Assembly: GCF_019703855.1 (NCBI RefSeq)
Contig: NZ_AP024086.1
Coordinates: 3,058,501-3,122,500 of the forward strand
Reading direction: 5' to 3'
Source of the DNA: Desulfomarina profundi
GTDB lineage: Bacteria; Desulfobacterota; Desulfobulbia; Desulfobulbales; Desulfocapsaceae
Length of the DNA: 64,000 nt
The position numbers were made by a program, and so were the translations under genes. Below are positions 33,357-64,000 of this stretch, one piece after another (the stretch's first letter is position 1; each line of letters starts with the position of its first letter). The notes below the pieces were generated by a model that was not told where the DNA came from, ran no database searches, and saw only the letters and a list, made by a program, of their open reading frames with translations.

Positions 33357-36300
33357 ATGCAGGCATATACAATCAAAAACAAAATAGCCATCATCAGCAT
33401 TCTTGCCTGCTGCCTCTATTCATTTTTCATTGGACTGTGCTTTTATTTCGATACCGTTCAGGAAAAAAAAAACACCATGGAGGTGGCACGTAATAGAGCA
33501 TTGACTGTTTACAAAAAAGACCTGGCCTTTCGCTCATGGGCTGCGGAACATGGCGGTGTATATATTTTTCAGAATGACACAAACTCTCCTCATGCCCATC
33601 TGAAGACCACCCCGGAGCGAGAATTCCTCACCCCTTCCGGCAAGAAACTGATCCTCGTCAATCCCGCATCCATTCTTCAACAGGTCTCTGAAAATTTCAA
33701 TAAGCTTAACAGGAAAAATGACCAGCTTCCAAGCTTGAAAATCTTTAACCGCAACACGGCGACTGACGGATGGGAAAAAAAGGCCACAGCACAGCTGTCC
33801 GCAGGCAGTCAGGAGGTGTTCCAAACTGCATTATCCCGAAACAATCCTGTATTGCGATTAATAAAACCAATCAGGCTCCGAAAAAACTGTCTGCGTTGCC
33901 ACGGCCCGGACGGATACAAAGAAGGAGATACAAAAAGTATTGTATCAATCACTGTACCGTTACAGCCATTCCTCGAGAAGGAGCGAGAAAATATCAAATT
34001 TCTCTTTCTCCTGCATTTTTCTTTCTGGATAGTTGGTGTCGCCTTCATACTGGCAGCATTCTTCTGGGGAAGACGCAGGATTGTTGAGCGAATCCATTCA
34101 AGAGAAGCGCTGTTGAAAAGTGAAAACGATTTTCGTTCGATTTTCAACAACTCTCCCATGGCAATGGTAATCATGGACAATAACGGGGAAATGCTTTCCT
34201 TCAACCATCGTTTTTCCATACTGTTTGGTTTTGGAAAAAACGATATCAGGTCCATGACGGAGTGGTGGGAGAAACTCTTTCCGGAACAGGAATACCGAAA
34301 TAAAGTAAAAAAGTGGTGGTCCGAAAGTGTTGTCAGCTCGCGAAATGATGAGAAGACAGTGGAAACAAGTGCATGGACAACGACCAGGAAAAACGGGGAT
34401 ACTCTCACCATCGAATTCAGCCTGGTTCCCCTGACGGATATGTCAGTAATTACCCTGAACGATATTTCCACTCAGAAACAGGCCAAGGAAGCCCTGCAGA
34501 TAAACGAAGAACGATTCAAAGATGCCCAGAAGCTTGCCCATGTCGGCCACTGGGAATTCGACCTGAGAACAAAAGAGCTTATCTGCTCTGAAGAAATATT
34601 CAACATTTTTGAAATGAAACCGGAGCAGTTTAAAAATTCTTTCAGACCATTTCTCAAAAGGGTCCATCCGGAAGACAGGAAAAATGTTTTCAAAGCCTAT
34701 TCAAATCTTGAACCCGCTAAAGCCCCCCGTGAGATAAGCCACCGTCTTCTTCTCTCCAATGGACGGATCAAATTCATCCAGGCAATTTTCCGCACAAAGC
34801 ACGATGACACCGGTACTCCCGTCTGTATACGAGGTACTGTCCAGGATATCACTGCCCGCAAAGAAGAGGAAACACTGCGAATTCGACTGCAGACAGCCAT
34901 CGAGCACACGGCAGAAAGCATTGTCATAACAGATAAAAACGGTACAATTCAATATGTTAATCCAAGATTTGAAAAGATCACCGGTTACTCGAGAAAAGAG
35001 GCCATCGGCAAAAACCCACGTGTTCTCAGAAGTGGCAGACATAACCGGGAATTCTACAGAGATATGTGGAAAACCCTGTTTGAGGGCAAGGTGTGGAAAG
35101 GTCATTTTATCAACAGGAAAAAAGACAACAGTCTCTACGAAGAAGAGGCAACTATTTCTCCAATATTCAATTCCGATGGAAACATTACTGCTTTTGTTGC
35201 TGTAAAGAGGGATGTTACCGAACAACTCAGGCTGGAAAAACAGCTGCGACAAACTCAAAAAATGGAAGCTATCGGTACTCTTGCCGGCGGTATTGCCCAT
35301 GATTTCAACAACATTCTGGCAGCTATCCTCGGTTATGCTGAAATGGCCAGAGAAGATTGTCCGCCTGATTCAACCATCGCCGATGACCTGGACAAAGTAC
35401 TTACAGCCGGTCATCGGGCCCGTGATCTGGTGCAGCAGATTCTGGCTTTCAGTCGTCAGACAGACACAGAACGTATCCTCTTTTCCCCGGAAGCAATTGT
35501 GAAAGAGGCCATAAAAATTCTTCGACCTTCAATTCCAACAACTATTGATATTCACCAGGATATTGAACCGGATATCGGCTCCATCCACGCCGACCCCACC
35601 CAGTTCAACCAGATCCTTATGAATCTCTGTACAAACGCCTACCATGTTATGGAGAAAGATGGCGGGATACTGACAATATCTCTTAAAAGAATGACTCTTG
35701 AGGCGAAAGGTCCCTATCATGGTTTTGAAATCAAGAGCGGACAGTTTATCCAGCTGACAGTGCAGGATACCGGCCCGGGAATCCCCAGGGAACTGAAAGA
35801 AAAGATTTTTGAGCCTTATTTTACCACAAAAAACATCGGTCAGGGAACCGGGATGGGCCTTGCGATAGTTCACGGTATTGTCAAAAGCCTGGAAGGACTC
35901 ATTGAAGTGGAAAGTCCCTCCGAAGGTGGTGCAGCTTTCCATATATACCTGCCGGTTTTCCAGGAAAAAGCCGTTTCAGAAAACCCTGTTACAAGCAGGA
36001 GCTTTGCGGGCCATGAAAAAATACTGCTGGTTGATGATGAGGAAATGCTGGTCAACATGGGAAAAGACATGCTTGAAAGACTGGGGTACTCTGTCACTGT
36101 AAAACAAGACGGCAGGCAGGCCCTGGAGGCATTTAGAAAGCATCCCGATCAATTTGACATCGTCATTACCGACCAAACCATGCCGGGCATGACAGGATTA
36201 AACCTCTCACGGGAAATTCTCGCAATCAGACCAGACATACCTGTCATCCTCTGCTCCGGCTACAGCTCCATAATTTCAGAAGACAAGGCTAACGCCATCG

Positions 36301-36380
36301 GCATCAGGAAATACATAATGAAACCCATCACTCAGCAAACCATTACCAGGCTCATCAGAGAAATTCTGGATAACAGATAA
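33357..36380 (+). CDS. hybrid histidine kinase with periplasmic c-haem (Tll0287/DUF3365-like) sensor, three PAS domains and REC
   Basis: 1007 residues. Helix ~10-31, a periplasmic domain with C178LRCH182 (CxxCH, c-type haem) near its end, second helix ~215-237, PAS domains at roughly 255-370, 380-500 and 510-635 (each with the PAS/PAC pattern, e.g. ITDKNGTIQYVNPRFEKITGYSRKE), HisKA H-box GTLAGGIAHDFNNILAAILGY, HATPase (NLCTNAYHVM, DTGPGIP, GTGMGLA) and receiver domain (LLVDDEE, TDQTMPG). The haem suggests redox, O2 or NO sensing. It follows the bd-like operon on the same strand, so it may control respiratory genes. ATG at 33357 lacks a strong ribosome-binding site. Confidence 0.9.
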   Translation: MQAYTIKNKIAIISILACCLYSFFIGLCFYFDTVQEKKNTMEVARNRALTVYKKDLAFRSWAAEHGGVYIFQNDTNSPHAHLKTTPEREFLTPSGKKLILVNPASILQQVSENFNKLNRKNDQLPSLKIFNRNTATDGWEKKATAQLSAGSQEVFQTALSRNNPVLRLIKPIRLRKNCLRCHGPDGYKEGDTKSIVSITVPLQPFLEKERENIKFLFLLHFSFWIVGVAFILAAFFWGRRRIVERIHSREALLKSENDFRSIFNNSPMAMVIMDNNGEMLSFNHRFSILFGFGKNDIRSMTEWWEKLFPEQEYRNKVKKWWSESVVSSRNDEKTVETSAWTTTRKNGDTLTIEFSLVPLTDMSVITLNDISTQKQAKEALQINEERFKDAQKLAHVGHWEFDLRTKELICSEEIFNIFEMKPEQFKNSFRPFLKRVHPEDRKNVFKAYSNLEPAKAPREISHRLLLSNGRIKFIQAIFRTKHDDTGTPVCIRGTVQDITARKEEETLRIRLQTAIEHTAESIVITDKNGTIQYVNPRFEKITGYSRKEAIGKNPRVLRSGRHNREFYRDMWKTLFEGKVWKGHFINRKKDNSLYEEEATISPIFNSDGNITAFVAVKRDVTEQLRLEKQLRQTQKMEAIGTLAGGIAHDFNNILAAILGYAEMAREDCPPDSTIADDLDKVLTAGHRARDLVQQILAFSRQTDTERILFSPEAIVKEAIKILRPSIPTTIDIHQDIEPDIGSIHADPTQFNQILMNLCTNAYHVMEKDGGILTISLKRMTLEAKGPYHGFEIKSGQFIQLTVQDTGPGIPRELKEKIFEPYFTTKNIGQGTGMGLAIVHGIVKSLEGLIEVESPSEGGAAFHIYLPVFQEKAVSENPVTSRSFAGHEKILLVDDEEMLVNMGKDMLERLGYSVTVKQDGRQALEAFRKHPDQFDIVITDQTMPGMTGLNLSREILAIRPDIPVILCSGYSSIISEDKANAIGIRKYIMKPITQQTITRLIREILDNR

Positions 36381-39162: not shown

Positions 39163-40806
39163 TCAGTTGACAATAACCCCTGCCATGTTCGGAATCTGCA
39201 TTCCATGATGGAACAGATAGGCAATAATGACCGCAACTGGAATGATAAAAAGAAAGAGGGAGACAAAATAGACCCAGACCATTTTGCCGAACTGTGCTTC
39301 CGCCAGTTTTTTGAAATCGGTTATTATGCCGAGGCTCATGAAAGTCAGCATGAAAAAGAGTTTTCTCATACCTTTTTCAACGGCAACAGCACCCACCTTG
39401 GCATTTTTGAGAACTGCCAGTCCTTCGGGGGTGGAGCCTGACTGTCCGGGGCCAAAAAAGATACCGAGATAGATCCACCAGGCAGCAAAATAGCCCAATA
39501 CAAACTTGGGAAACCGGAACCAGACTTCCGAGAACGGTACCCGATCTCCCTCATGTTTCTCAATCTTGTAGACCCAGAACAGAGCAAGGACAAACGCCCA
39601 GAGTCCGATAAACATATCGATCCAGATTTTAGTCATGACTGCACTGGTGGTAATAACCCCGGGCATCCAGACAATTTTGCCACCACTCTCCTTTTCAACC
39701 TTTGCACGCATGAACTCATCAAGCAGTTCACCGGCTGCAGCATCGGCGCCGTCGGTTTTCACAGCCATACCCATTGCTGACCCGGCGACAATGGGATCAC
39801 TGGTTCCCGGCCACACATGGGTAAAGACTCCCGGTAAAATAACCAGTTCAATAACAGCATAGACAACGACAAGGGCAGAAACCATAATGGAAACTATGGG
39901 CCTGGCCCGCACGGCGCCACCCGTCGCTACAGCTGCTGAAACACCGCAGATGGAGATGGCCGAGCCAAGCACTGCCGCTGTTTTACGTGGCAATTTGAAG
40001 ATGAGCCGGGAAATCGTATAGACACCCGGCCAGAAAATCAGGTAAGCCACAACCGTTGCGGCTGCACCGGCCACAAAAAGTTCAAAGGTAAGATGGGCCA
40101 TCTGCTGGCCAATCTCCGCCCCCTTCGCCCCCAGCTTCGAACCGGTCAGAACAGCCTTGATGGGCAGATAACCAACCTTGACCCCAAGAAAAACAATGGC
40201 GGTCTTGATATACCATTCTGGTTTGGCCGCTTCACTGAGATAACGTGCAAGAGGTTTAAAAAAATTACCTATAAGGAGTCCCACCACAAGAGCCAGAATA
40301 AAGGAAGCACCGCCGCCGAGGGAAAGGGTGAAGGTACCCGCCGGAAAATGGCTTTTTTTCAGGTCAACAGCCGATGCAGCGAAAAAGGCATTATGACCGA
40401 TAAACCAGACTGCATAGGTCAAAAAGAAAATGATTGTCCAGCCAACCACAAAACGCTTTATATCCCACTTCTGGAAATAAGCTCCAATAGTAGTGGCAAT
40501 AGTAAAAACAATATAAGTAACAAAAATGGAGCCGATCGGCCCAAGTGACTTGTAAGCTGCCTTGGCGGTGAGACTGTATTTCCCGCCAAGGGCGTAAAAC
40601 GATTTGTCAATCGTGACTATTTTCTTTGCAATTGCGCCATCGGGCATGGAGGCGACCCAGATTTTCGGATAGGATATCCATCCAACCAGGTCGACACCCG
40701 AAAGCGTCAGAAGACCGAGAATAAAAAAGGCAAGACCCAGCCAGACTGCCCACCAGTCCTCTGTTGTGGCCATGCCGGAATACCAGTATCGTTGCGTTTT
40801 AGCCAT
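39163..40806 (-). CDS. YeiH/UPF0324-family membrane carrier (putative sulfate exporter family)
   Basis: 547 residues, about 12 or more transmembrane helices. The family core is clear: FILALVVGLLIGNFF, KTAIVFLGVKVGY, LPRKTAAVLGSAISICGVSAAVATGGAV (the conserved ICG(V/A)SA signature) and, late, FFMLTFMSLGIITDFKKL. It is ~200 residues longer than Escherichia coli YeiH, with an extra N-terminal part (two or three helices plus hydrophilic segment). Strong AGGAGG site. Preceded on the same strand by two small genes. The family name is a prediction; transport of sulfate, sulfite or another sulfur oxyanion is unproven. A second long member is at 62405-64000. Confidence 0.85.
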   Translation of the reverse strand: MAKTQRYWYSGMATTEDWWAVWLGLAFFILGLLTLSGVDLVGWISYPKIWVASMPDGAIAKKIVTIDKSFYALGGKYSLTAKAAYKSLGPIGSIFVTYIVFTIATTIGAYFQKWDIKRFVVGWTIIFFLTYAVWFIGHNAFFAASAVDLKKSHFPAGTFTLSLGGGASFILALVVGLLIGNFFKPLARYLSEAAKPEWYIKTAIVFLGVKVGYLPIKAVLTGSKLGAKGAEIGQQMAHLTFELFVAGAAATVVAYLIFWPGVYTISRLIFKLPRKTAAVLGSAISICGVSAAVATGGAVRARPIVSIMVSALVVVYAVIELVILPGVFTHVWPGTSDPIVAGSAMGMAVKTDGADAAAGELLDEFMRAKVEKESGGKIVWMPGVITTSAVMTKIWIDMFIGLWAFVLALFWVYKIEKHEGDRVPFSEVWFRFPKFVLGYFAAWWIYLGIFFGPGQSGSTPEGLAVLKNAKVGAVAVEKGMRKLFFMLTFMSLGIITDFKKLAEAQFGKMVWVYFVSLFLFIIPVAVIIAYLFHHGMQIPNMAGVIVN

Positions 40807-56165: not shown

Positions 56166-56435
56166 TTACAGCCCTGCACTTTTTTCACTACGAAATTTAG
56201 TACCCAAATAATTTGCTGCAACCGACGCATGGCCCTGGAGGAGGATCATGGACAGGTGAACACCCTCTGTATTTTTGAATATATTTTTCAGGGATGAAAA
56301 TGTTGCAATGGAGAGGTCGCGCTCCTGCCACAAGCCGGCATGGGAAAAGCGCAGGCATGTGACACACCGTAAAGTACAACGGCTGGTAAGCTCAATCTGG
56401 ATGAATCCGTAGCGGATTTCATCCAGATTGGTCAA
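56166..56435 (-). pseudogene. truncated radical-SAM protein
   Basis: Starts at TTG 56435 after a strong GGGGAGGA site. The first ~45 residues are a clear radical-SAM N-terminus: FIQIELTSRCTLRCVTCLRF has the CxxxCxxC cluster motif, followed by the helix TFSSLKNIFKNTEGVHL. Normally GxGEPLL comes next; here the sequence turns into unrelated MILLQGHASV and stops at 89 residues. No single-base change restores the family, so it is a genuine 3' truncation, by deletion or rearrangement. Confidence 0.7.
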
Positions 56436-56521: not shown

Positions 56522-58210
56522 TCAACAAGCCTTTTCCAGATCCTCCCATAAATCCTCCACCCATTGATATCGTTTATAAACGTCGTAGGCCATGGCCTTC
56601 ACAATAATCTTCTCCAAGGCAACGGACAGATTTGCACTACAATTTCCGGGAGCCGGAATCTGTTTCTTAAGTTGTAGCCACTTCTGGAGTGATATTCGTT
56701 TCTCGCCAAAGGGTACATTTCCTGTTGTTGCCAGGTAAAGCAGGATACCAATGGCATAGATATCACTACGAGAATCCCCTCGTTTGCCCTGGATTTGTTC
56801 CGGTGCCATATACAACAAATCCCCCTGTGGTCCAAGACCGGCTGCAACAATGGGATCCTGCAACTGATCACTTGCGGCCAGCCCCATATCAATAAGACGT
56901 AATTTCTGTCTTTCGTCCAGCATCAGGATGTGTGGCCGCAGGTCGTGGTGAACAATACCCGCAGCATGGAAGGATGCGACCAGATCACAGAGCTGTGAAA
57001 AAACAGGCAGCAACAGCCGATCTTCCATCCGTTCTTTATCCTGCAGCGAGATAAGACTCTTTCCCCGGATTTCTTCCAGGATCAGCACGTCACCTACGCG
57101 GTCTTTGACCCCCGGCAGGCATGGGTGTGATACTGTTTCAAATAATTGGAGCTCTGTTTCAAAACAGCATCTGTACAATGGATTCTGCAACACTTCGTCA
57201 AAACCGATTTTGAGAGCCACCTTATCCGACGATGCAGTCGCATGGCCTTCGTACAGCCATGACATGGCGCCAGCAGCAACCGGCTGAGTAACAACATAGT
57301 CACCGATAAAATTGGGCTGTAGAGAGGCGCCTTTGCGGGCAGAACGAACATAACGTCGCAGGGAACCCAGAGAAGCATGCAACACATCAAGCTCGTCTCC
57401 CGGACCGGGGGCACTGTTTTTTTTCCTTTTTTCATCCACAATTGATACCATTGCACCAAGACGTTCAATGACTAATTTCTGGAAGAGCAGGTTTAAGAGC
57501 CAGAGCCAGACCAGTGTTGTAAGCAGAGTGATAAAAAAAATAACCAGGCTACCTTGCCATGCTTCCCGAAATGACGCGGAAACAGGGATAGCCACCGAAT
57601 CGATACCTGCCAGATCACCAGCCTGAAAACGAAACCCTCCCTTCTTACCGTATCGATCTATAAGAGACTGCGGGGCATCTTCCACTTTGCCATGACAGCG
57701 GATACAGGGAGAAGAAAAATAATCGGGAACCATGGAGATGAAGAAGGACTCTCCGTTTTTCTGCACTATACCCTGCCAGAACAACCGTTCAGGATCCATT
57801 TCAAACCAATCCAGCATCTCCTCTTCAAAGGGGTCGGCCAGATTACGCATATTATGTGGATTCACCGAAGCCCTTCGGTAGATGTAATTGGGCATCGATC
57901 CGGCAAAACGTTCCATGATGGAGGTACTGACGTAGGTGGTTGACATTGCCTCAATAATAAAGGCATTCTGGCCGTGCAGCTCAAACATTTTGGGACGGAG
58001 TTCTTCTCTGACGTAGGCACGGATAGCCTCAGCTTCCCGGAGGATGACCTCGGATTTGGTCATGGCCTCAGCCATGACCAGTCGCCTTGTATTCCAAAAA
58101 GAAAGCGCTGACAGCAACAGACCACCTCCAATAAGTATAAGGGCTGACCAGAGAAAAAAGCGTTTTCTGAGATTGGTGGTTACCCCTTGTCCATATCTCT
58201 TGATTTTCAT
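56522..58210 (-). CDS. membrane serine/threonine kinase-like protein with periplasmic c-haem (DUF3365) sensor
   Basis: 562 residues. Helix ~18-38, periplasmic DUF3365/Tll0287-like domain (MAEAMTKSEVILREAEAIR; haem motif C169IRCH173), second helix ~221-243, HAMP-like linker, and a Hanks-type kinase domain (~300-560): Lys in KVALKIGFDE, LILEEIRGKSL, HHDLRPHILMLD catalytic loop, LIDMGLA in place of DFG, and MAPEQIQG. The catalytic-loop Asn (HRDLKPEN) is replaced by Ile, so activity may be lost or altered. It is the last complete gene of the 64.0-56.5 kb operon, following the phosphatase by 18 bases. It could convert redox or gas sensing by haem c into Ser/Thr phosphorylation. Confidence 0.87.
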   Translation of the reverse strand: MKIKRYGQGVTTNLRKRFFLWSALILIGGGLLLSALSFWNTRRLVMAEAMTKSEVILREAEAIRAYVREELRPKMFELHGQNAFIIEAMSTTYVSTSIMERFAGSMPNYIYRRASVNPHNMRNLADPFEEEMLDWFEMDPERLFWQGIVQKNGESFFISMVPDYFSSPCIRCHGKVEDAPQSLIDRYGKKGGFRFQAGDLAGIDSVAIPVSASFREAWQGSLVIFFITLLTTLVWLWLLNLLFQKLVIERLGAMVSIVDEKRKKNSAPGPGDELDVLHASLGSLRRYVRSARKGASLQPNFIGDYVVTQPVAAGAMSWLYEGHATASSDKVALKIGFDEVLQNPLYRCCFETELQLFETVSHPCLPGVKDRVGDVLILEEIRGKSLISLQDKERMEDRLLLPVFSQLCDLVASFHAAGIVHHDLRPHILMLDERQKLRLIDMGLAASDQLQDPIVAAGLGPQGDLLYMAPEQIQGKRGDSRSDIYAIGILLYLATTGNVPFGEKRISLQKWLQLKKQIPAPGNCSANLSVALEKIIVKAMAYDVYKRYQWVEDLWEDLEKAC

Positions 58211-58228
58211 AATAATTCTCCGCAGAAA

Positions 58229-58969
58229 TCAGGTTCCTTTACACAGGCGTCTGCCGAGAACAGACGGTAGACCGGCATCCAGATCTGCCTGCACTGTTTT
58301 TTCCACATCATAGGCTACCCGATAAAACTCCAGTTTTTCCTCACGACTGTCATAAATAAGGTAACAGGAGCGGGGATCCCCATCCCGGGGTTGCCCTACG
58401 CTACCGCAATTGATGATGCAACGCCTGCTGTCGGCCAGCTCAAACTGCATATTGCCCGGGACGGTCTGCAGAGTCACAGCCAGCAGGTGTTTTCTGGTTA
58501 TCACCAATGGTTGGTGGCTGTGGCCGATATAAAGAAGACGGCAACTGGTGGCACCAAAGCTGCGCAGGGCGTATTTGCGGTCCATAACATAACGCCAGCC
58601 TCTGGGATTATATGGGTTAGCATGGACAAAGGTCATGTCAGCCAGATCGAGCCGGTCCGGCAGTGCTGCCAGATATTTTTTATTTTCTTCGCTCAGTTGC
58701 TCCATGGTCCACAGAATCACCTCTTTGGCAACTGAGGACATACCGTAGGGAGAAGTCTCCCAAAGGGCGGCCAGGTCGTGATTACCGGCAAGGACACGGC
58801 AGTTTTTCAGGCCACGTACCAAGCGAATGCACTCATTGGGATAAGGGCCGTACCCCACCAGATCTCCCAGGCAGATACTTCTGTGTACATTTCGTTTTGC
58901 GGCATCATCAAGCACACTCTGCAGTGCCTCCAGGTTGCCATGAATATCAGAAAAGATCATCAACCGCAT
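58229..58969 (-). CDS. metallophosphoesterase (PP2A-like/YfcE-type family)
   Basis: 246 residues. Calcineurin-like motifs in order: FSDIHGNLEAL, GDLVGYGPYPNE, LAGNHD, HANPYNP, and YIGHSHQP, giving the di-metal ligands. Proteins of this COG are bacterial PP2A-related phosphoesterases. Its ATG directly follows the stop codon of the kinase-Usp-CZB gene (TAAATG), so the two are tightly coupled. With kinases on both sides a protein phosphatase role reversing their phosphorylation is the natural inference; nucleotide hydrolysis is an alternative. Confidence 0.87.
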   Translation of the reverse strand: MRLMIFSDIHGNLEALQSVLDDAAKRNVHRSICLGDLVGYGPYPNECIRLVRGLKNCRVLAGNHDLAALWETSPYGMSSVAKEVILWTMEQLSEENKKYLAALPDRLDLADMTFVHANPYNPRGWRYVMDRKYALRSFGATSCRLLYIGHSHQPLVITRKHLLAVTLQTVPGNMQFELADSRRCIINCGSVGQPRDGDPRSCYLIYDSREEKLEFYRVAYDVEKTVQADLDAGLPSVLGRRLCKGT

Positions 58970-60910
58970 TTATTTACCCTCCCCTGACCGGCAACCTGAT
59001 ACTCTTTTCCTCTTTTCCTGGACCAGGGAACAGAGATCCTGATCCAGGTTGAGGGCTTTCAACAATGGGCCGTAACAGGCCAGATCCGGTTTGCTGACCG
59101 GGCAGGTGTTGTCCGTCAGAAAAGGAACCTGGGGAGGGGGCGAATCGAGATGGGTACGAAGAAATAGAGAAACCCGGCTCAGTTCATGTTTCAACCTGCA
59201 AGAGAGTGGCAGAAATTCACGGGTATAGAGGTCTTGCAGACCTTCAGGATCATGGTCGCAAAGTTCAGACATCCTGGAGGCAAGCCGGTGAAAGCGGGAA
59301 TGAATTGGCACCAGTGCTGAGGTTACCTGCAGCCATTCATCCTTTTTTTCAAAAAAGGCCAGAAAGCGGCCAAACAGACAGTTGTTTTCGCTGAGATCAA
59401 CATCCTGCTGAGGATTCAGGAGCCTGCGGTAGATAAAATCTGTATGATAATGGAGATGCTCATACCAAAGATCAACGAGAAAGATATCACAGGCAAGCAC
59501 CTGCCCGGCTGTCAACTGGGCAGGTTGCTGAGCCGCCAGACCTGTGGCAGGTGAAAACACCACATTATCAGCAACCACAATTGGGCAGGGGCTATTATTT
59601 TCCAGATGTCTGCGTACGGAAACAGTGCCTAGCATCCCTTGCTTTTTACGGGATTCGGCCAGTACCAGCAGTTCCGCGCCCAGATCTGTACAGAGTTTGC
59701 GCAGCACATCAACCACCTCACCCCGAACAAGGCGAATACTGGGATCAATACTGCAGCGGCGAAGAAGCTGTACAGCCTGTTCGAGACGTCCCATCAGCTT
59801 CTCCCCTTCGACAGCGATGCCGTAGCGTCTGAAATGGGAGTCGTCCTCCTCTTCAATAACATGCACCAGCGTTATTTCTGCAGATCGGATAAGTGCCTCT
59901 TTTTTGACTTCGGCCAGCATATTGTCGCTACCGGGAGAATCTATTAAAGCACCAATAATCTGTGGTTTATCATATGTAATAGTTGTTTTTTGTGGTTGTC
60001 TACGCTGTAACCGGATCGGTTTACCGGGAAATATGCGTCGCCACAATGATGACGATTTGTTTCTGCTGCCTGCCTCAGTGACCGGGAGTTGCTGCCAGTG
60101 ATTAAGATCATGCAGAAGATCCATGACATCTTTATAACGATCTGCAGCGTGGCGGGCAATGGCGCAGAGAATTATGGATTGGATCTGAGGAGGAATTTTG
60201 TCATTGTGATAACGTGGCGGGGTCGGATCATAATGCAGGCGCCGCCTGGCGACACGTTTCTTACTGGTGCGGGGCCAGGGTAACCTTCCGGTAAGCATCT
60301 CGTAAAGGAGCATACCCATGGTATAGATATCGCAACGGGGATCAGACCTTTCACCCAGCAACTGCTCCGGCGAAATATACCAGGGAGTGCCCAGGGGGTT
60401 TTGCAAGTCAAGCTCCAGCAGATCAGGAAGATGTCGGCAACTGGCCAGACCAAAATCTATCACTTTGATGGAGGAGTTATTGCAACAGATAATATTTTCG
60501 GGCTTCAGGTCCAGATGGACAATGCCCTGCCTGTGGAGATAAGAAACCACGCGCGCAAGTTGTTTCATCAGGATCAAAGCTTCACGCAAATCAAGGATGC
60601 GGTTTTTGCCGATACGGGAGCGTAGATCTTCCCCCTCCACATGCTCCATGATAATATACTGCCGACTTTTCTGGCGGTGGATAAAACGTATAACTCCGGG
60701 GTGATCGAGCAGCCGACTGATACGGTCTTCATTTTGATAATGATAGAGAAGGAGAGGATGATTGAGAATGTTGCTGTCGGGTATTTTCAGAACAACATGC
60801 TGTCTGGAAAACAGATCCTCTGCCAGAAAAATGCTGGCAAGCGGGCTTTTATGAAGCCGTGAACTAAGTACAAAAATATCGATATTATCGCCGACTTCAG
60901 GAAAAGTCAT
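58970..60910 (-). CDS. serine/threonine kinase fused to Usp and a CZB-like zinc-binding domain
   Basis: 646 residues. Residues ~8-285: complete Hanks kinase with Lys42 (VVLKIPDSN), IVHLDLKPENII, VIDFGLASC, ISPEQLLGE, DIYTMGMLLYEM. Residues ~315-465: universal stress protein domain (IIGALIDSPGSDNML ... LLVLAESRKKQGMLGTVSVRRHLENNSPCPIVVAD). Residues ~480-580: DLWYEHLHYHTDFIYRRLL ... ENNCLFGRFLAFF ... PIHSRFHRLA, the His/Cys spacing of a CZB (chemoreceptor zinc-binding) domain. Cytoplasmic. No transmembrane helix. Between a small membrane protein gene and the phosphatase. A zinc- or oxidant-responsive kinase is inferred from the CZB Cys. Confidence 0.86.
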   Translation of the reverse strand: MTFPEVGDNIDIFVLSSRLHKSPLASIFLAEDLFSRQHVVLKIPDSNILNHPLLLYHYQNEDRISRLLDHPGVIRFIHRQKSRQYIIMEHVEGEDLRSRIGKNRILDLREALILMKQLARVVSYLHRQGIVHLDLKPENIICCNNSSIKVIDFGLASCRHLPDLLELDLQNPLGTPWYISPEQLLGERSDPRCDIYTMGMLLYEMLTGRLPWPRTSKKRVARRRLHYDPTPPRYHNDKIPPQIQSIILCAIARHAADRYKDVMDLLHDLNHWQQLPVTEAGSRNKSSSLWRRIFPGKPIRLQRRQPQKTTITYDKPQIIGALIDSPGSDNMLAEVKKEALIRSAEITLVHVIEEEDDSHFRRYGIAVEGEKLMGRLEQAVQLLRRCSIDPSIRLVRGEVVDVLRKLCTDLGAELLVLAESRKKQGMLGTVSVRRHLENNSPCPIVVADNVVFSPATGLAAQQPAQLTAGQVLACDIFLVDLWYEHLHYHTDFIYRRLLNPQQDVDLSENNCLFGRFLAFFEKKDEWLQVTSALVPIHSRFHRLASRMSELCDHDPEGLQDLYTREFLPLSCRLKHELSRVSLFLRTHLDSPPPQVPFLTDNTCPVSKPDLACYGPLLKALNLDQDLCSLVQEKRKRVSGCRSGEGK

Positions 60911-61002
60911 GCTAAAATCTCTCCATATTCTGCAACGGCTACAGGGGATAAAGCGGTTTGTGCATTCAATTTAAAGATGCTGTTATCGACGGCCCCGGTG
61001 TA

Positions 61003-61575
61003 TCACTGGCCAAGAAATACATAACCAATCACGATTATGAAAATTACCACCAGCTCCACAACAGTAATTTTGGTCAGCATCAGACATATTTTTCGCTGTG
61101 ACGGGTTCATTTGCAGGATCATCCGGTTCATGAGCAAACGAAAAAAAACCGTGCGGGGTGTGGTGGAAACATAAAGTCTGAGATATTCCTGAATCCCGCG
61201 AACCCAGAGCAGGATATCCTGTTCCAGCTCATCATTAAAAGCTTCCTCTTCATAACGAACCCGTACCTGCGTTTTCTCTTGGTCTGCAAAAAAAAGCAGC
61301 TCCTGTACACCATAATCAAAGAGAGTAATCCGCATGATTATTTCAGCCTGAAACGGATCATCTGGGGCCGAAGTGCTATCCAGTTGCAGGCCTAGAGAAA
61401 AGGTCTGTTCCGTAGCGTAATCACGAAGGTTTGCAAAAAGAGCGGTATGCCGCTGCTCTGTATCTTCGAGGAACCAATGGGGATGAAGCCTGAGCAGTCT
61501 TTCTGCATCAAGAATGGTGGAGGTGGCAAGTGTTGTTGCTGCAGGAGTCAGATACAGGTCATAACACTGTTCCAT
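61003..61575 (-). CDS. tail-anchored membrane protein of unknown function
   Basis: 190 residues. Soluble alpha/beta N-terminal part (LDAERLLRLHPHWFLEDTEQRH, then a strand-rich stretch ending EKTQVRVRYEEEAFND) and a single C-terminal helix (~168-188, ITVVELVVIFIIVIGYVFLG). It starts one base after the UspA stop, and lies before the kinase-Usp-CZB gene. This geometry suggests a membrane docking partner in the same system. No family recognised. Confidence 0.65.
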   Translation of the reverse strand: MEQCYDLYLTPAATTLATSTILDAERLLRLHPHWFLEDTEQRHTALFANLRDYATEQTFSLGLQLDSTSAPDDPFQAEIIMRITLFDYGVQELLFFADQEKTQVRVRYEEEAFNDELEQDILLWVRGIQEYLRLYVSTTPRTVFFRLLMNRMILQMNPSQRKICLMLTKITVVELVVIFIIVIGYVFLGQ

Positions 61576-61576
61576 A

Positions 61577-62071
61577 TCAATCCACAGGGTGTGAAGAAGG
61601 TGCTATAAGCAGGGGGCAGGGCAGAACAGGATGCAGCTTTGCCTGATCAATACGTGCCCTGAGCCCTTTTTCCATCTTCAGGTTAAACAGCCTCCGGCTT
61701 TCACGGTAGGGGCCGATAACAATAAGATCACTTTTCCGTTTTTCGGCCTCAGCGGCAATAGTTGCCTCAATGAAACCTACTTCCCCCACAAAGGTTGCCT
61801 GTGCTGCTGCCGGATATTTTTCTTTTATCCGCTGCCAGTCCTCTTCATTTTCTTCCTGCATCTGTTTTTCCACGTGGTCAAGGAAGGTGGTATGTGTTTT
61901 GCTCGAGTTAAGCCAGTCATCACCGGTCATGGCCTGCCAGTCCTGGTCAATGATAGTCAGAACAGTGACCTGCAAATCAGGCTTTTTAACGCATAGTTCG
62001 TCAAAAACAAGCCGTTCTGCCTGTCTGGCACCTGCAGTTCCGTGGGTACAGAGAAGAATAGAAGTAAACAT
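61577..62071 (-). CDS. universal stress protein (UspA family)
   Basis: 164 residues. Opens ILLCTHGTAGARQAERLVFDEL and contains FIEATIAAEAEKRKSDLIVIGPYRESRRLFNLKMEKGL then PVLPCPLLIA, the C-terminal nucleotide-loop area; the usual G(2x)G(9x)G(S/T) is degraded (GPYRESRR), so ATP binding is doubtful. Translationally coupled to the tail-anchored protein gene. Part of the minus-strand operon with the carrier and kinases. Confidence 0.85.
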   Translation of the reverse strand: MFTSILLCTHGTAGARQAERLVFDELCVKKPDLQVTVLTIIDQDWQAMTGDDWLNSSKTHTTFLDHVEKQMQEENEEDWQRIKEKYPAAAQATFVGEVGFIEATIAAEAEKRKSDLIVIGPYRESRRLFNLKMEKGLRARIDQAKLHPVLPCPLLIAPSSHPVD

Positions 62072-62124
62072 AGTTTAAGGATAGCAAAAAATTACCCTCG
62101 CTGGAAGGCGAGAGAAAACAAGAG

Positions 62125-62154
62125 CCCTTCCCAATATTTCACTATCAGGAAGGG
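62125..62154 (-). terminator. possible attenuating hairpin before uspA
   Basis: CCCTTCC/GGAAGGG arms with a 16-base loop; on the minus strand the stem is followed by CTCTTGTTTTCT. Partial terminator between the small membrane protein gene and the UspA gene; may lower expression of the kinase genes relative to the carrier. Confidence 0.4.
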
Positions 62155-62186
62155 TCATAAAACAAGCTGTTTTTATTGGGTGATTT

Positions 62187-62384
62187 TTACATCCACTTTG
62201 TAAAAACCAACACAATAAAGGTTGTTACCAAGGATAGGATAAGGGCTGTCATATCCTCATTACGTTCACTGGCAAATACGGAAAGTGCACGTTCTTCAAG
62301 CTCTTCCGTATTCGCATTCTTGGCAATTTCAGACTCTCCCTTACCGGCATCACCTGTTTCAATGGTAATTTTATCATCACTCAT
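62187..62384 (-). CDS. small single-pass membrane protein, carrier companion
   Basis: 65 residues. Polar, Glu-rich N-terminal part (KGESEIAKNANTEELEERAL) and one C-terminal helix (~45-63, MTALILSLVTTFIVLVFTKW). GGAGGATTT site before ATG at 62384; the longer upstream frame overlaps the carrier gene and is unsupported. Lies 20 bases after the second YeiH-like carrier. Same size and topology as the protein at 41129-41317 next to the first carrier, though the sequences are not obviously alike. Confidence 0.72.
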   Translation of the reverse strand: MSDDKITIETGDAGKGESEIAKNANTEELEERALSVFASERNEDMTALILSLVTTFIVLVFTKWM

Positions 62385-62404
62385 TTTCAAATCCTCCGGA
62401 AATG

Positions 62405-64000
62405 TTATTTTAACACCACATCTTTTACCAGCCACAATACGACTACGAAAGAAAGTGTGGCTTTTGTGACGCCTGAGATACAGCCAATGACCAGCGGCCA
62501 TCCGCCTGCCTGAAAAATCGCCTTCTTGGTGATCTGCATACCAAGCCCGATCAGACCAAAGGCAAAGAACCAGATCATGCAGTCGGTCAGGGTGGTGACA
62601 GTCTTGGACTTTTTATGCACCTGTTTGATGGCATGGTGGATCGCTCCCTTAACCTCTTTGTCCAGGGTGATTTCCTTTGCCTTCGCAGCCGCCAGGATTG
62701 ATTCCAACTGGAACATCCGCGCTTCAGCCTGCTTGTTGAAAACCTTTTTGTCGGCACGGCTCTCAAAATTACCGGCCAGCTGACGCTGGGCAATAATGTC
62801 TTTCACTGCGGCCATCTGCTCACCAGTGAGGCCCTTGATTGAACCGGCCTGCACTGCACTATTTAAATTCTCCCACTCCTGTTCAGTAATCTGGCTTCGT
62901 TCATTATAACTGTAATCAATGAATTTTCCCTTGTAATGGGTTGGTGGTGAAAAAAGGCCCATGGAAGACATGGCAAAGAGCAGCAGGAAACCGATGATAA
63001 AAATGGGGAATTTGTCAATGACAACTTCTTTAAAGGTTAATTTTTTCCCGGATTCTTTACCGAACCAGGTTGCCAGCACCAGCACGATGATCGGCAGAAA
63101 AAGGACGCGGGTAATGTTGAAAATCTCCGCGACCTTCAAGGTCTTGATATCAACGGCGTTAAAGGCCAGGGCTGCTGCTGCAACCTGGGCAGAGTTAAGG
63201 ATACCAGTTCCTGCCCAGGCACCAAACTGGACAGGGTTCATGCCTGCCCAATGACCGACGGTGGGAAAAATGAACATACAGATAATACCAAAAGAGAGAA
63301 TGGTGCCGATGGTATAGGCCATCTCTTCACTCTTGGCTTTAACAACAGGGGCAACGGCCACGGTGGCAGAAACACCGCAGACACCCATACCAGCGGACAG
63401 AACACCGGTCATGGTTTTGGGCTGTTTAAACATTTTGCCGAGCCAGAGGACAAAAAATACCGTTCCCAGGACAAAGGTGCCGACCAGCACAACACTGTAA
63501 GAACCAAGTTTGGCCAGTTCGGCAAAACTGTATCGTGCGCCGAGCATGATAACGCCCATTTTGAGGACAAACCGGGCGCATTTGACGCCGGCAGCGGCAA
63601 ATTTAGGAATACCGTAGGTATTGGTAATAACAACACCGGCGAGCAGGCCAAGGATAACATAGTTGAGATTCAGGACCTTGTATATTTTAAAACCGAGTAC
63701 CGGTTGCAGGCTGTGGCTTATCAGCTTAACCACTGGCTCAACGTACCAGCGAATGGCCATTGCCATAATCAGAATGAACAAAATGCCGGGCAGGGGCTGC
63801 AGAATAAAACGGTCAATAATTGTATCGCCGGGTTTTCGAACAGAATTAATGATAGCGCCAACTATGCCCACACCTCCGACAATAAGGCCCATACTTACTT
63901 GAAGATCTGCTGTTTTGGCTGTGTGAAGGTATTTCATCAAAGGATGCAAGACGCCGCTGCTGGCTATCAATGCATAAATAATCAGAAGGCCGCTGAGAAT
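62405..64000 (-). CDS. YeiH/UPF0324-family membrane carrier, second copy (5' end beyond window)
   Basis: At least 531 residues; the frame stays open to the window edge (ILSGLLIIYA before the TTG at 63970), so the true start is outside. Family core: NYVILGLLAGVVITNTYGIPKFAAAG, LKMGVIMLGARYSF, MTGVLSAGMGVCGVSATVAVAPVV, GTGILNSAQVAAAALAF, and a final IWFFAFGLIGLGMQITKKAI. A ~130-residue hydrophilic insertion (~residues 345-475 of the visible part, including SQITEQEWENLNSAVQAGS and coiled-coil-like QLESILAAAKAKEITLDKEV) interrupts the membrane part. It leads the operon with uspA, kinases and phosphatase; the insertion is a plausible target of that regulation (inference). Confidence 0.86.
   Translation of the reverse strand: MLSGLLIIYALIASSGVLHPLMKYLHTAKTADLQVSMGLIVGGVGIVGAIINSVRKPGDTIIDRFILQPLPGILFILIMAMAIRWYVEPVVKLISHSLQPVLGFKIYKVLNLNYVILGLLAGVVITNTYGIPKFAAAGVKCARFVLKMGVIMLGARYSFAELAKLGSYSVVLVGTFVLGTVFFVLWLGKMFKQPKTMTGVLSAGMGVCGVSATVAVAPVVKAKSEEMAYTIGTILSFGIICMFIFPTVGHWAGMNPVQFGAWAGTGILNSAQVAAAALAFNAVDIKTLKVAEIFNITRVLFLPIIVLVLATWFGKESGKKLTFKEVVIDKFPIFIIGFLLLFAMSSMGLFSPPTHYKGKFIDYSYNERSQITEQEWENLNSAVQAGSIKGLTGEQMAAVKDIIAQRQLAGNFESRADKKVFNKQAEARMFQLESILAAAKAKEITLDKEVKGAIHHAIKQVHKKSKTVTTLTDCMIWFFAFGLIGLGMQITKKAIFQAGGWPLVIGCISGVTKATLSFVVVLWLVKDVVLK

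Follow-up and report, generated by a model that had tools for sequence, protein, structure and literature searches.

The window analysed here comprises 64,000 nucleotides of the 4.31-Mb genome of Desulfomarina profundi (contig positions 3058501-3122500), and its end cuts an operon-like row of minus-strand genes in which a YeiH/PF03601-family carrier is joined to Usp proteins, a tail-anchored (TA) protein, a Hanks kinase, a metallophosphoesterase (MPP) and a c-haem sensor protein. The locus is real and conserved, and it elaborates the carrier-Usp system of sulfur bacteria in a way that is apparently undescribed. We read it as a regulated efflux system, controlled in two layers, for sulfite or a sulfur oxyanion close to it, a reading to which a probability of about 0.45 is assigned. 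Domain calls were made by a Pfam search of the locus proteins, comparing bit scores with the model cut-offs, and the features are as follows:

62405-64000, minus strand: YeiH/PF03601-family carrier of 542 aa, with the coding sequence running 33 nt beyond the window end (Pfam PF03601, 180 bits; orthologue alignment)
62187-62384, minus strand: single-helix protein of 65 aa (orthologues), with the N-terminus MSDDKITIETGDAGKG containing an [E/D/N]TGxxGKG motif and Thr10 as candidate phospho-acceptor
62095-62154, minus strand: two hairpins with T-rich tails between the 65-aa protein and the Usp, a possible partial terminator or processing site
61577-62071, minus strand: stand-alone Usp, here called Usp2 (Pfam Usp, 30.8 bits)
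61003-61575, minus strand: TA protein with a predicted helix-grip (SRPBCC/START-like) domain (AlphaFold2 (AF2) model, Foldseek)
58970-60910, minus strand: Hanks kinase followed by a degenerate Usp domain and, at the C-terminus, a helical domain resembling CZB (Pkinase 136 and Usp 35 bits)
58229-58969, minus strand: calcineurin-like MPP (Pfam Metallophos_2, 59 bits)
56522-58210, minus strand: Tll0287 c-haem (CxxCH) periplasmic sensor between two helices, followed by a cytoplasmic kinase-fold domain (Tll0287 123 and Pkinase 85 bits)

An earlier note on this DNA had described seven same-strand genes with tight junctions, and the open reading frames, strands and junctions agree with it. The Usp2 and TA genes are separated by a single base (61577/61575), the kinase-Usp stop at 58970 directly abuts the MPP start codon at 58969, and 18 bases lie between the MPP and c-haem protein genes. 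Beyond the window, an eighth operon gene encoding a 99-aa two-helix protein precedes the carrier, and a divergent pair encodes a Tll0287-GAF-PAS histidine kinase and an NtrC-type regulator. With no more than 6 Hanks kinases and 4 Tll0287 proteins in the whole genome, the presence of two of each at this locus, together with 2 of the 11 Usp domain matches, is more than expected by chance.

Conservation was studied by a search seeded with the TA protein and by using the carrier alignment to scan the genomes of 85,462 species. The former found the TA protein directly behind a YeiH-like carrier and a Usp in distant families, and the latter returned at least 80 loci. Among the loci listed, a Usp lies no more than 700 bp behind the carrier in 72 of the 79 with room for it, and a TA gene is found in 61/73. 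For the 80 relatives listed, densities per 100 kb within 6 kb of the carrier and farther away were 5.9 and 1.0 for the kinase, 3.6 and 0 for the MPP, 9.5 and 0.3 for Usp, and 8.2 and 0 for the TA protein, an enrichment of 6-fold or more in each case. As a control, other PF03601 carriers of the phylum had a Usp neighbour in 0/19 cases, compared with 8/10 here. Within the order, the TA gene occurs in 19 of 194 genomes, and 15 of the 17 TA-bearing loci examined present carrier, small protein, Usp, TA, kinase-Usp, MPP and Tll0287-kinase in the same order. Conservation is therefore not limited to one genome, and the proposal that these genes belong together is borne out by synteny kept across species and classes.

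The loci with the full set include that of the cultured Desulfolithobacter dissulfuricans GF1. For this strain, the Usp GF1_10800, the regulator GF1_10760 and GF1_10730, found only in thiosulfate disproportionation, were considered as operon members and discarded: the operon lies at 3.31 Mb and the expected gene order of GF1_10760-10900 fits another locus at 1.21 Mb, so that those data do not apply to the operon.

The carrier-Usp-TA core extends through Desulfobacterota and alpha-, beta- and gammaproteobacteria, mostly in sulfur lineages. It stands mostly alone in the alpha- and gammaproteobacteria, while in betaproteobacteria (Gallionella, Sulfuricella, Rhodocyclales) the order is MPP, kinase-Usp, carrier, Usp and TA, placing kinase and phosphatase on the other side of the carrier. 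In the carrier tree, the kinase-linked sequences fall mainly into two blocks, Desulfobacterota and betaproteobacteria. A separate recruitment of the phosphatase in these two groups is not established (AU test, p = 0.095), one common origin of the fused Usp remained compatible with the data (p = 0.48), and the kinase tree gave no resolution. In four betaproteobacterial loci (L046, L056, L063, L087), kinase-Usp and carrier are separated by a gene for a periplasmic-type rhodanese, which adds to the link with sulfur chemistry. In two loci of Desulfovibrionaceae (L040:13443-14723 and L044:13298-14608), a different, diverged kinase of 426-436 aa lies downstream of the TA gene, after a 98-101-aa protein.

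The carrier belongs clearly to PF03601, with 180.1 bits against a gathering cut-off of 24.5, but it fails the YeiH model TIGR00698 (101.4 against 232.6 bits). Before its last two helices, where YeiH has a short loop according to the alignment with the E. coli protein, all close orthologues have an insertion of about 120-130 residues that is long, charged and rich in Lys/Arg. Since the C-terminus of YeiH is reported to be periplasmic and the neighbouring loops are Lys/Arg-rich, this insertion is probably periplasmic. It is also found in gamma- and alphaproteobacterial carriers with no kinase nearby, and on both grounds it would be a poor kinase substrate. A sequence search of the PDB with the carrier and the TA protein gave no usable match. 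The only other PF03601 protein of the genome is a distant carrier within the window (39163-40806, minus strand, 547 aa, 48 bits), which adjoins a 1007-aa hybrid histidine kinase containing Tll0287 (33357-36380).

A better phosphosite candidate than the carrier insertion is the invariant Thr of the [E/D/N]TGxxGKG motif in the 65-aa protein. The motif was found in 24/24 determined loci with the kinase and in one of the six without it (p = 4e-5, uncorrected for relatedness). Two close relatives form a natural pair, as L002 has both kinase and motif and L017 has neither.

The kinase-Usp protein holds the complete Hanks catalytic set, with Lys42, Glu61, HxDLKPEN and DFG all invariant in the orthologues. 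Its CZB match remained below threshold (16.7 against 29.4 bits, Pfam) and the candidate His/Cys ligands are unevenly kept, in 10-14 of 15 orthologues, which argues against the zinc/thiol input earlier proposed for this domain. The c-haem protein, with a PF11845 match of 123 bits, keeps its CxxCH motif (C169, C172, H173) in 10/10 orthologues. Its kinase domain retains the Lys and both Asp residues, but HRDxKxxN and DFG are missing in the same ten sequences, which have HHDLR (Arg for the catalytic Lys), Ile or Val at the metal-binding Asn, and DMG. Previously described as a sensor kinase, it is probably a regulatory pseudokinase instead.

The metal ligands of the MPP are invariant in the orthologues. 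The label of PP2A-type given to it earlier was right as to phosphoesterase and imprecise as to type, the protein being a calcineurin-like MPP closest to PDB 3rqz. The possibility that it is a generic kinase partner was discarded, as a kinase lies close by in only 3 of 29 other family members inspected, in addition to the paralogue of the same genome. The latter belongs to a second, carrier-free neighbourhood (L197:5973-9218) with a 442-aa kinase, an MPP 43% identical to that of the operon, and a Usp.

Usp2 forms a single orthologous group across classes and phyla (tree support 98/93). The ATP-binding motif G2xG9xG(S/T) was found in 0/72 stand-alone Usp2 and 0/16 kinase-Usp fusions of Desulfobacterota, and in 13/14 betaproteobacterial fusions. 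For the TA protein, a helix-grip domain with a C-terminal helix is predicted (AF2, pLDDT 93.4), and the Foldseek matches are AHSA1, cyclase and PYL folds (best E 4.6e-4, TM 0.35-0.44), so the modelled protein distantly resembles AHSA1/START-like proteins. In the genomes inspected, it was seen only alongside this carrier.

Regarding transcription, sigma-54-like elements occur upstream of the operon mainly in loci bearing NtrC, and they are perfect in L020 and L038, for example. Hairpins, some of them followed by T-runs, stand between the small protein and the Usp in several loci, so that the expression levels of carrier and regulators may differ.

The earlier note knew of no described system with this composition. 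This holds for the full combination, which is apparently undescribed, but the core arrangement is known in Desulfovibrio vulgaris Hildenborough as DVU0539-0545, to which its authors assigned no function. There, a sigma-54-dependent regulator binds and activates the DVU0542 promoter; under molybdate, the histidine kinase and the Usp DVU0542 are needed, while the carrier and other genes are detrimental (PMC10102598, PMC3333781, PMC4641369). The NtrC-type regulator switches on DVU0542-0545, and the molybdate fitness effects of the carrier and of one Usp are opposite (PMC10102598, PMC3333781). Compared by published layout, both loci have a divergent histidine kinase and a sigma-54 NtrC regulator beside a Usp, a carrier of the PSE family and a small helix protein. 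The kinase-Usp fusion, the phosphatase and the c-haem pseudokinase are not reported in DVU0539-0545, where two stand-alone Usps flank the carrier, whereas here one stands alone and the kinase carries the other Usp domain as a fusion. DVU0539-0545 is probably a smaller relative of the locus. A reduced relative, L179, has the same layout as that published for DVU0539-0545, with NtrC and Tll0287-histidine kinase followed by Usp, carrier, a 135-aa helix protein and Usp, and it has no START-like TA gene. At the DVU0544 position of L179 (10160-10567), a helix is joined to a biotinyl-lipoyl/barrel-sandwich-like domain reminiscent of membrane-fusion parts.

Other known systems share single parts. In Salmonella, sulfite resistance depends mainly on YeiH (PMC12880088), and in Hyphomicrobium YeiH is a presumed sulfite exporter, 526-fold induced by thiosulfate (PMC12423496, PMC11582611). 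The locus carrier has the Pfam family and core motifs in common with the YeiH/PSE family (TC 2.A.98, TIGR00698), but it is about 200 residues longer owing to N-terminal helices and the insertion. Enteric YeiH is under the LysR-type regulator YeiE rather than under a haem two-component system as proposed here. A Usp that acts on an exporter through a phospho-Thr has its closest functional precedent in M. tuberculosis, where Rv2623 (Usp) negatively regulates the exporter Rv1747 (PMC5549992). Rv1747 is a non-homologous ABC exporter with FHA domains, and no FHA domain was found at the locus. Tll0287 c-haem Cache domains joined to signalling modules have nitric oxide (NO)-sensor properties (PMC12889525), and these sCache_heme sensors have, like the locus protein, a CxxCH c-haem domain between two helices; a fusion to a Hanks-type (pseudo)kinase is unmentioned in the main text of that paper. 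Hanks kinase-USPA fusions such as that of the locus were catalogued in 2005, including one in Nitrosomonas europaea, as architectures only, with no carrier context (PMC1262709). Neither the composite system nor DUF3365-Ser/Thr kinases were found in the literature searched, the coverage of which excluded most subscription papers.

Kinase/phosphatase control of the carrier is the natural reading of this locus, and we infer such a phosphorylation circuit from the conserved linkage together with the catalytic residues. Sulfite or a related anion is suggested as the substrate by the carrier family and by the hosts, the present one having dsrA. In the proposed first layer, the divergent c-haem histidine kinase and its NtrC partner would drive a sigma-54 promoter before the carrier operon upon a change in NO or redox state. 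In the second, the accessory subunits of the carrier would be Usp2, the START-like protein anchored in the membrane and the two small helix proteins. Kinase-Usp would phosphorylate a cytoplasmic accessory protein, most likely at the motif Thr of the 65-aa protein, the MPP would remove this phosphorylation, and the c-haem pseudokinase would relay the periplasmic NO/redox state to the active kinase. It is only tentatively suggested that the locus represents an undescribed class of transport control, in which reversible Ser/Thr phosphorylation of a small membrane subunit governs the activity of a sulfur-oxyanion exporter, a periplasmic c-haem pseudokinase supplies the NO/redox input, and a second c-haem protein, the histidine kinase, acts on transcription.

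Several points weigh against regulated sulfite efflux. With TIGR00698 below its cut-off, the substrate of the carrier may differ from that of YeiH, and the AF2 model of the carrier is poor (pLDDT 60), with an uninformative Foldseek search. The p-value is inflated by the common descent of motif and kinase, and the relaxed form of the motif was fixed only once the sequences had been viewed; moreover, L037 bears the motif with no kinase nearby. The hairpins may allow carrier and regulator genes to be expressed separately.

The same regulatory logic may serve another substrate, with the carrier moving sulfate, thiosulfate or molybdate-like oxyanions, perhaps inward. This is a possible though less probable explanation: the probable relative DVU0543 is harmful to cells stressed with molybdate (PMC10102598), as fits uptake of a sulfate analogue, and the subfamily scores below the YeiH model cut-off and has extra helices and an insertion, but the YeiH proteins characterised so far indicate resistance to sulfite or its export and the hosts are sulfur bacteria that form sulfite. 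It is rather unlikely that kinase, phosphatase and c-haem kinase are a general signalling set with other targets, merely downstream of the carrier operon. Such a set would agree with the hairpin separation, with the kinase-free core in alpha- and gammaproteobacteria and with the carrier-free kinase-MPP-Usp neighbourhood of the same genome; it agrees poorly with an order kept in 15/17 loci, with kinase-Usp and MPP at the same carrier in another order in betaproteobacteria, and with a carrier-adjacent small protein that bears TG..GKG when the kinase is present. Very improbable is the model of the earlier note, in which the kinase phosphorylates a cytoplasmic carrier insertion of about 130 residues under zinc/thiol input through CZB. 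The length, charge and constant presence of the insertion would suit it, but the YeiH topology and Lys/Arg-rich flanking loops place the insertion in the periplasm, kinase-less carriers have it as well, and the CZB match is the doubtful one described above.

Little is known of how sulfate reducers, disproportionators and sulfur oxidisers handle the toxic sulfite that they make internally, and hardly any work has addressed the post-translational control of their ion carriers. For both questions, the locus offers a conserved gene set, a cultured host (D. dissulfuricans GF1) and a single candidate phospho-threonine, as well as a likely role for a Desulfovibrio operon for which fitness data have been published but which has so far been an orphan.

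Finally, in some loci TA and kinase are separated by a further gene of 366-379 codons, whose product in L031 is homologous to the L017 radical SAM/SPASM protein; the gene of the latter is intact and follows the TA gene. Directly after the operon of D. profundi, at 56200-56435 of the window (minus strand), a remnant of such a gene matches residues 1-61 and 350-366 of the L017 homologue.

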